Of a stretch of DNA of 64,000 nucleotides, positions 12,910 through 15,323 are shown piece after piece. The notes under the pieces were generated by a model. It searched no databases. It saw only the letters and a program-made list of their open reading frames with translations, and was not told where the DNA came from. The DNA lies in assembly GCA_007844125.1 (NCBI GenBank), contig CM017563.1:13101835-13165834 (forward strand), given 5' to 3'. The stretch is from Sinonovacula constricta (Eukaryota > Mollusca > Bivalvia > Cardiida > Solecurtidae). The translations under genes were made by a program, and so were the position numbers. Position 1 is the first letter of the stretch; the number at the start of each line of letters is the position of its first letter.

Positions 12910-13029
12910 CCCACCAACATTTCGTATATTAGAATACCCAGTGACCACCAGTCTACTGCCTTACTGTGCCCCTTGCTCTGTATAATTTCTGGTGCCAAGT
13001 ACTCTGGTGTGCCGCATAAGGTCCACGTT
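12910..13029 (-). CDS. PRKX: PRKX-like kinase, alternative exon 4b (activation loop to helix F)
   Basis: 120 nt with the same phases as exon 4a. The acceptor is TGTTGACAG|AACGTGG and the donor GTGGG|GTGAGT. It also encodes TWTLCGTPEYLAPE but then GHSKAVDWWSLGIL IYEMLV. Against 4a it differs at residues 203 (Y/H), 204 (N/S), 211 (A/S), 216 (T/I), 217 (F/Y) and 221 (S/V); these correspond to PKA 215, 216, 223, 228, 229 and 233. Glu218 (PKA Glu230, which binds the P-2 Arg) is kept in both. The GH at 202-203 and IYE resemble human PRKX and PKA respectively. About 33 of 120 bases differ between the copies, most of them silent, so both appear to be under protein-level constraint. Confidence 0.93.
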
Positions 13030-15203
13030 CTGTCAACACACAGCATATACAACACACATAAAGTATTTACACATACAACACATGTGTAGTCTTAACATAT
13101 AACATACTACACATTTAGTCTGAACATATAGCATACAACACACAGGATCAGGTATTCGTTACAAAAAGCAATGTTATGTCATTATACATGTATTCTCTAA
13201 GCATACACCACATGTCTAACCTCAAATAAAGACATACAGTTATACATATGTGCTGTCTACACATACAAAATAACAACACATTTAATAATAAACCTGGCAT
13301 ATAAAAACACATGTAATCTTTACACATGGCATACATAATCGTGTGTAATCTCTACAAAATAGCCTCTAAACAATCAGCACCCTATCATAGTGTAAAGAAA
13401 AGAATCAAATGTAGCTTATTATTGACAATGTTATAAACACATAATATATAAAAGACATATATCAGAAAATTGACTATTGTAATGCATCAAAATCTCTACT
13501 GCTTTCATACTACTATAACATTTTGACATTAGCACCTCATACAATTGGACCAAAAGTTGTGCTGTACTTATTGAAGTGGTGTACTTATTGAAAGTGAAGA
13601 CAATTCAAGGGCTGTTTAAACAAGAATTGATATATAATACTTAAAAAATTTGAAATGGGGGAAAATTATTAAACAGTGCCTTTGTAACAAACCTCTTTCA
13701 TATTTTATATTCATACGACATAAACATAAACTATCCTATATGAATGTTAATGGAAGTAAAGCAATAATATAAAACAATACGGAAACAACAGTGAGTGAAA
13801 ATGAAGCGAAGCCAGCTAGAAACGTTATTATGTTAATTGAGAGGTATGCATTGCGGCAACTGACTTGAATGTTTAAGCCTGTGATATTAATTCATTTATA
13901 TAATCTTTATAAATATTTGTCCATGGACTTTTAAAACTTACATTGGAGTTAAATGGGAGATTTTAAAAGTTTCATATTTTAGAAGAAGTTACATAACATA
14001 TAATTAATATCTTTACCATATGTTAAAATTTAGTTGTTGACACAAATTTTGTGTGCTTAATGACATAAGTAAAAGTACACTTTAAGAATAATGAGCTAAA
14101 AATTTAAAACAGAAAAATCTAATATAAAATATAAAATTAAAGTCAGGTCCCATTCCTTATTCTATTTTCTTGTATAAATTCAGACAGGTCCTATTTTATC
14201 AAAATAAAATACTTAAAAGAACCTAACATCACTAAGAATGTCTGCCTAAACTTTTGCTATTCAATGGTTGACAGAACAACAAATCTTGATCGCAACAACA
14301 TAGCATGATCGCAGCAGGTCTAAGCTTGGCACTAAATAACGCTGTTTCAACACACCTGAAAATTTGACTCACTGTGACAACATAAATAGCACAGTACCAA
14401 AGTGTCCTCATGCAAAATCCGCAGTTAGCATTAAGCTGGTACTGTAGCTGTGTCTACACAATGCATCTCAACTTAACACTCAGTACTCAGAGCTTCTGAT
14501 CAAGGGAAGAATATATAGGCATGAGAAAACTATAATGATGGAATTTTCTAATGTTAATTCCTTTATTTCTCTTCCAAAACCTATAATGTTGGTATTTATT
14601 AGAATCATCTCAATGTGACAATTCTAATGAGTACCCACAATATAGGATTTATTCCTTTATTTCTCTTCCAAAACCTATAATATTGGTACCCATTAGAATC
14701 ATCTCAATGTGACAATTCTAATGAGTACCCACACTTTAGGGTTTATTCCTTTATTTCTCTTTCAAAACCTATAAAGTTGGTACTCATTAGAATCATCTTA
14801 ATGTGACACTTCTAATGAGTATCCACACTTTAGGGCTTAGTCTCTTATTTCTCTTTCAAAACCTATAATGTTGGTACCCATTAGAATCATCTCAATGTGA
14901 CAATTCTATTGAGTACCCACACTTTAAGGCTTAGTCTCTTATTTCTCTTCCAAAACCTATAATGTTGGTACTTATTATATTGAAAGCGTGTAAAAGAGAC
15001 AAAATTCTAATGAATATCCTCAATACAGAGTTTGTAGGAGAATAATAGAATTATGATATTTCATGTTATAATATTTTTTTAACTGCCAATCAGATTTAAA
15101 TCCACTCCCCATATCTGAAGCTTTGGTACTGCATGCAATTCCATTGACCTTTGGATGCTAGATCAAATCGTGGGCAGCATTGTCCAACTGCATGTAATCT
15201 TAC
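13030..15203 (-). other. intron between alternative exons 4a and 4b
   Basis: 2,174 bp. The only structured part is the 94-bp tandem array at 14561-14985. 13030-13340 is a run of diverged acaacacat/cataca repeats; 13340-14540 is AT-rich sequence with no recognised feature. Confidence 0.8.
14561..14985. repeat. 94-bp tandem repeat between the alternative exons
   Basis: Four to five copies with unit starts at about 14561, 14655, 14749, 14843 and 14937. Each holds ttatttctcttccaaaacct and a short inverted repeat, cattagaat ... attctaatg, that can form a hairpin. Confidence 0.92.
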
Positions 15204-15323
15204 CCTGACAGCATTTCAAACGTGAGGATTCCTAATGCCCACCAGTCTACCGCTTTATTATAGCCTTTGCTTTGAATGATTTCTGGCGCTAAATATTCTG
15301 GCGTACCGCACAATGTCCAAGTT
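15204..15323 (-). CDS. PRKX: PRKX-like kinase, alternative exon 4a (activation loop to helix F)
   Basis: 120 nt. The first base completes Arg182; 39 codons (183-221) follow, then two bases of Gly222. The acceptor is TCACCAG|AACTTGG and the donor TCAGG|GTAAGA. It encodes TWTLCGTPEYLAPE (Thr185 is the PKA Thr197 equivalent; APE 194-196) and then GYNKAVDWWALGIL TFEMLS. The GYNKAVDWWALG stretch is PKA-like. It is the upstream member of a duplicated pair and lies 2,174 bp before exon 4b with identical length and phases. Either exon alone joins exons 3 and 5 in frame. Including both would also keep frame but would repeat the APE/helix-F block, so mutually exclusive use is inferred, not shown. Confidence 0.93.

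Follow-up and report, generated by a model that had tools for sequence, protein, structure and literature searches.

The Kinase Locus

The window, by which we mean the whole stretch of 64,000 nucleotides of Sinonovacula constricta DNA analyzed here, and the DNA beside it on contig C9 hold a locus that is, as judged from its sequence, a single protein kinase gene of the PRKX/PKA-C3 (DC2) type, located on the minus strand and having an intact kinase domain. Its exons are given below, in coordinates of the window unless C9 is indicated.

53142-53253, minus strand: PRKX exon 1 (coding part), 112 nt, with an ATG start, the donor GTAAGTAA, and an in-frame join
19801-19969, minus strand: PRKX exon 2, 169 nt, encoding the glycine-rich loop; located by tblastn, AG/GT sites
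18286-18549, minus strand: PRKX exon 3, 264 nt, encoding the catalytic loop and DFG; AG/GT sites
15204-15323, minus strand: PRKX exon 4a, 120 nt, TWTLCGTPEYLAPEIIQSKGYNKAVDWWALGILTFEMLS(G); relatives in Mya and Ruditapes
12910-13029, minus strand: PRKX exon 4b, 120 nt, TWTLCGTPEYLAPEIIQSKGHSKAVDWWSLGILIYEMLV(G); contained in protein P0121
6871-6966, minus strand: PRKX exon 5, 96 nt; AG/GT sites
C9:13093815-13093872, outside the window: PRKX exon 6
C9:13089305-13089382, outside the window: PRKX exon 7
C9:13072712-13072837, outside the window: PRKX last exon, 8b

Exons 3, 4a, 4b, and 5 had been proposed in a previous sequence-only reading of this DNA, and their coordinates were all found to be correct, as were the phases, the splice sites, and the in-frame joins. 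To place the exons outside the 3-4-5 segment, P0121 and other relatives served as templates. The source of P0121 is a contig of 1,677 bases from the "lgn" set, which we take to be assemblies of public reads, and this contig must be spliced, because the exons span 82 kb in the genome. In the tblastn search with P0121, exon 1 matches at 100% over residues 1–38 of the protein. The eight-exon join over 82 kb yields 340 amino acids with no internal stop, with 4a as well as with 4b, and the 4b form is identical to P0121 at 339 of the 340 residues. P0121 covers the PF00069 domain completely (1–263 of 263, 248.6 bits), and the C terminus of the joined gene reads FADF, i.e., it is of the FxxF type.

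The main protein search scored 7,983 candidates, and the best 120 of its 6,905 matches were considered. Among these, the named heterodont proteins (Ruditapes, Mya, Dreissena) are annotated as PRKX-like and match the entire query with 74–85% identity, and the scallop matches are annotated as PKA-C3-like and DC2-like. The earlier assignment to the PRKX type is thus supported by best matches of the PRKX, DC2, and PKA-C3 kinds across the full length. Two further protein searches were considered to the same depth, namely the best 120 of 4,304 matches, with full-length relatives falling outside the length limit of that search, and the best 120 of 4,719.

The kinase matches in the genome fall on contigs C1–C19 of 177, which would fit the 19 chromosomes of many heterodont clams, and two pairs of them have equal scores on opposite strands (C3, 29868851 and 35365837; C11, 26256981 and 26980417), as if they were inverted duplications. 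The window also contains a number of minisatellites. Those at 24167-26390 (36-nt units), 9909-11258 (40-nt units), and 54917-56046 (21/38-nt units) yield long open frames through repetition, and another one, at 63739-63960, consists of 5.0 copies of 44-nt units with a 100% match.

Exons 4a and 4b Are an Old Tandem Pair

Exons 4a and 4b have the same length and the same entry and exit phases, each is bordered by an AG acceptor and a GT donor, and the path from exon 3 to exon 5 is in frame and free of stops via either of them. They are separated by an intron of 2,174 nt. No third copy was found by blastn in the 64-kb window. When the whole assembly (1.22 Gb, 177 contigs) was searched with the 4a peptide, one place was obtained for 4a, at 100%, and one for 4b, at 85%, while the next of the 24 matches, on a different contig, is at 68%.

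The two exons differ at 33 of 120 bases, 24 of these differences being at third codon positions, and the amino acid is altered in 6 of the 39 whole codons; the base and amino acid counts of the sequence-only reading hold on recounting. The dN/dS-type comparison envisaged there was made here by the Nei–Gojobori method, which gives 25.5 silent differences over 26.2 silent sites, i.e., saturation, and 7.5 replacement differences over 90.8 sites, i.e., 0.083. When 33 random changes were put into the 39 codons of 4a (20,000 simulations), the number of amino acid changes was 21.0 on average and 13 at minimum, to be compared with the 6 observed, and a stop was gained in 81% of the simulations, while none is present in the actual pair. 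Exons 4a and 4b are an old tandem pair, both members of which have been kept by purifying selection. The earlier view that both copies are old and selected is in agreement with the silent saturation as set against the low replacement divergence.

Predicted Consequences of the Exon Swap for the Kinase

The residues encoded by exon 4 were numbered according to PKA from the alignment to 1ctp_E, and the structural elements (linker, helix F, etc.) carry the names that we take to belong to these PKA positions. The first 20 residues, Thr195–Gly214, are identical in 4a and 4b, and the phosphorylation site Thr197, the P+1 loop, the APE motif, Lys213, Lys217, and Asp220 are all unchanged between the two. 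The six changes are at positions 215, 216, 223, 228, 229, and 233, all of them behind the APE motif: positions 215 and 216 are in the linker before helix F, positions 223, 228, and 229 are in helix F itself, and position 233 follows. The exon had been described as one coding for the activation loop to helix F. This is appropriate in that the loop is encoded within the exon, but the loop is the same in both copies and the changes are confined to the linker and helix F region.

Since Thr197, the P+1 loop, the APE motif, Lys213, Lys217, and Asp220 are common to both, the 4a and 4b forms should both be active kinases. In PKA, Lys213 and Lys217 are part of the surface that is contacted by the regulatory subunits, and helix F anchors both spines. 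We expect the swap to change the surface beside Lys213 and Lys217 as well as the way in which helix F is packed, and it is likely that it retunes the APE–helix F surface. The effect would be on how tightly regulatory subunits, inhibitor peptides, or protein substrates are bound, and not on catalysis.

Exons 4a and 4b in Other Molluscs

The sequence-only reading had suggested that the same pair be sought in other molluscs, and both forms are indeed present among the annotated proteins of Mya arenaria, with 4a alone in P0123 and 4b alone in P0127 and P0128, while those of Ruditapes philippinarum include 4a alone in P0129 and both copies in P0122 (X1). A second Mya gene model, P0243, also has the two copies in a row. 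In P0122 and P0243, 4a precedes 4b, which is the order found in the Sinonovacula window.

The two forms can be told apart by the letters at positions 215, 216, and 223, which are Y-N-A in 4a and H-S-S in 4b in all three species (window, Ruditapes, and Mya). H-S-S occurs in 11 of 207 matched blocks, of which 10 are in clam or species-unlabeled proteins and one is in a fungus (P0112). When Y-N-A is combined with L or T and then F or Y at 228–229, a pattern that we wrote ourselves to describe 4a, 4 of 323 proteins are retained, all from Ruditapes or Mya. With any letters allowed at positions 228 and 229, Y-N-A occurs in 14 of 207 blocks, and those beyond the proteins of the narrower pattern are mostly PKA-C-like models. 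The proteins of oyster, two scallops, Solemya, Pomacea, and Haliotis have H-N-S at these three positions, the freshwater mussel Sinanodonta has Y-N-S, and the chiton Liolophura has H-N-A. Classical PKA-C reads GYNKAVDWWALG in the 1ctp_E alignment, and its Y-N-A letters are shared by 4a. From the letters at 215, 216, and 223 in the compared proteins, 4b is thus the form nearer to the ordinary molluscan one, and 4a is nearer to classical PKA-C. Vertebrate PRKX is a kinase of the same type as the clam gene, and the macaque protein P0004 has a third form, GHGRAVDWWALGILIFEMLSG, unlike either 4a or 4b.

The named molluscs outside these clams have one form each among the proteins read, but these come from a database whose clustering at 90% identity conceals second isoforms, such that the absence of 4a elsewhere says little. 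In a tree of the 40-residue block, the 4a forms of Mya and Ruditapes join at 84/86, the 4a of the window falls outside that group, and none of the 15 inner branches is starred. Taken alone, this tree is no proof of a single origin.

A plausible course of events would be that exon 4 was duplicated in tandem in the lineage leading to these clams, after which 4b would have stayed near the molluscan form, with H-N-S becoming H-S-S, and 4a would have taken on Y-N-A. It is worth mentioning that we have also considered whether 4a was taken over from the PKA-C gene as a ready exon. This was rejected, as in this genome the block of the PKA-C gene is split between two exons (between SK and GYN). Over the first 19 codons, the difference from PKA-C is 17 bases for 4a and 13 bases for 4b, and the two exons differ from each other at 13.

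A separate observation concerns the PKA-C genes themselves. The Mytilus edulis PKA-C gene model P0247 contains GYNKAVDWWALGVL in repeated form, which looks like a duplication of the exon that follows the APE motif, and the Sinonovacula PKA-C gene has one such post-APE exon in the 14 kb read.

Mode of Splicing and Alternative Explanations

Taken together, we consider it probable that the locus is one PRKX-type gene in which one or the other of 4a and 4b is spliced in, giving two versions of the kinase with six residue differences. Alternative splicing of the two exons as such is very likely. The stricter claim of the sequence-only reading, that the exons are mutually exclusive, fares less uniformly: it is consistent with the single use of either copy in the annotated Mya proteins and of 4a in Ruditapes, but the reading frame is also kept when both exons are skipped or when 4a is joined to 4b, and the gene models P0122 and P0243 hold both. 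A frameshift, a short intron, or mixed U2/U12 sites are common devices for enforcing exclusive use, although they do not define exclusive exons. No such built-in block to double use is found here, the exons being 3n long, the intron between them 2,174 nt, and all sites GT-AG, which leaves no frameshift, short intron, or U12 site. As the frame, the intron length, and the splice-site type do not enforce exclusion, the choice between 4a and 4b would be made by splicing factors.

The same two gene models, P0122 of Ruditapes and P0243 of Mya, bring up an alternative in which 4b is constitutive and 4a is an optional extra, the doubled 40-residue block giving a kinase that is probably inactive or a decoy. 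Both models join the copies in frame, and the 4a+4b join is open in the Sinonovacula gene too. However, 4a is found without 4b in Mya P0123 and Ruditapes P0129, and we regard this alternative as unlikely. In the AlphaFold model of the Ruditapes joint form, the N terminus aside, the residues with pLDDT below 50 are 183–244 (62 residues), compared to 185–203 (19 residues) in the Ruditapes single form, the activation segment being poor in both.

It could also be argued that 4a is a mere relic of the duplication, spliced rarely if at all. Among the best 11 matches (P0121–P0131), the contig proteins P0121, P0124, P0125, P0130, and P0131 all carry 4b, and no 4a-bearing contig protein of this species was seen; moreover, 4a has a Thr at position 228, which is found in only 12 of 310 blocks. 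This Thr is, however, present in other proteins of the family as well, and 4a isoforms are annotated in two other clams. A leftover copy is also difficult to reconcile with silent saturation accompanied by only six amino acid changes, no stop, and intact splice sites, which makes this scenario quite improbable.

Practically no weight can be given to the pair being an assembly artifact of two alleles or gene copies, in view of the 27.5% DNA divergence and of the same pair in the same order in the models of two other species; the misassembly of two alleles, about which the sequence-only reading had been wary, is ruled out because each exon has one place in the assembly and the 600-nt flanks of 4a and 4b are unrelated, with no similarity except an 11-nt chance match (E 0.30).

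A Candidate Control Element and a Nearby Repeat

Two features lie close to the pair, the first of which is of interest for the choice between 4a and 4b in the preferred scenario of alternative use.

13030-13329, minus strand: GU-rich stretch directly upstream of 4b, a candidate splicing control element
14557-14971: array of 94-nt units (4.4 copies), whose arms are self-complementary, within the 4a–4b intron

The GU-rich stretch has 24 UGU[GU] words in 300 nt, while 6.9 are expected, and none of 500 shuffles reaches 24. Of the 1,274 minus-strand segments of 300 nt taken at steps of 50, only two hold at least 20 such words (the highest number being 21), starting at 13350 and 13300, and no stepped segment on either strand reaches 24. 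The scan covered five classes of splice-factor words in eight flanks, i.e., 40 tests with single-base shuffles. The number of YCAY words in the flank behind exon 5, which has a TCA-like repeat, was likewise reached by none of 500 shuffles, and four more of the 40 tests gave values between 0.010 and 0.030. Because the YCAY flank of exon 5 stood out equally and these further tests were low, the GU-rich stretch is only a lead, marking a place where a GU-binding splicing factor might attach. UGCAUG occurs three times on the minus strand of 6967-18285, and the one downstream of 4a, at 15137, is not counted as evidence.

A docking/selector RNA pair was also sought. By eye, no clear one was recognized among the 25 longest of the 45 inverted-repeat pairs in 6967-18285, these 25 being AT-rich or part of the 94-nt array.

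A Second Duplicated Exon

Outside the window, between exons 7 and 8b, there is an in-frame exon of 69 nt with intact sites (C9:13078290-13078358; L011:6456-6524). It encodes PPIVPHVLYDGDTSNYCPASPQP, which is related to the start of 8b, PPIIPKVAHDGDTKNF, such that it repeats part of the C-terminal tail. Tail inserts akin to it are found in Mya proteins, one in P0128 and two in P0123, while P0130, from a 3,151-base contig, has one and P0121 has none. With the 69-nt exon in addition to the 4a/4b pair, the gene may well yield more than two proteins. We tentatively put forward that heterodonts may possess a two-site exon code, in which the 4a/4b swap, combined with zero to two extra C-tail tether exons, would produce a set of kinases with different choices of regulatory subunit or substrate, the 4a forms being PKA-C-like.

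Comparison with Known Systems

Exon swaps within the protein-kinase core are, to our knowledge, few. The JNK exons 6a and 6b are homologous to each other and are located within the kinase domain; JNK belongs to the CMGC group, and its 6a/6b stretch is further on in the C-lobe than clam exon 4. JNK1/2 (MAPK8/9) is likewise a kinase with two alternative exons, and by analogy 6a/6b is the nearest worked example for the clam pair. In a table of PMC8699841, the JNK1/2 forms having one or the other of these exons are listed with alternative substrate binding. The use of each exon is established for JNK, whereas that of 4a and 4b is deduced here.

Like the clam PRKX gene, the Aplysia PKA catalytic subunit reportedly provides molluscan splice variants of the PKA family, and a 1988 report is said to describe alternative exons for its residues from about 142 to 183. 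These Aplysia variants reportedly concern the paralogous PKA-C gene and a different stretch of the kinase, unlike exon 4 of clam PRKX. Among the references of PMC12608923 there is a title from 1992 that deals with two N termini.

Tandemly arranged homologous exons within one gene are treated as mutually exclusive exons in PMC9013439. Exons 4a and 4b share this layout, and they may also share the use of one and only one copy at a time. In a paper on splicing in the Manila clam, mutually exclusive exons are reported to be among the least represented events, and the word PRKX does not occur in its main text. Among the papers listed in our literature search, none dealt with an exon swap in PRKX-type members of the PKA family. 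Tandem alternative exons in kinases are as such already known.

Human PRKX is described in PMC6143667 as being inhibited by RI subunits and responsive to cAMP, with tight binding to RI-alpha and weak binding to RII-alpha. The clam pair is a natural minimal experiment, confined to six residues outside the activation loop and with forms that are old enough for silent saturation, and it could show how the APE–helix F surface may set the choice of partner in a cAMP-responsive kinase.
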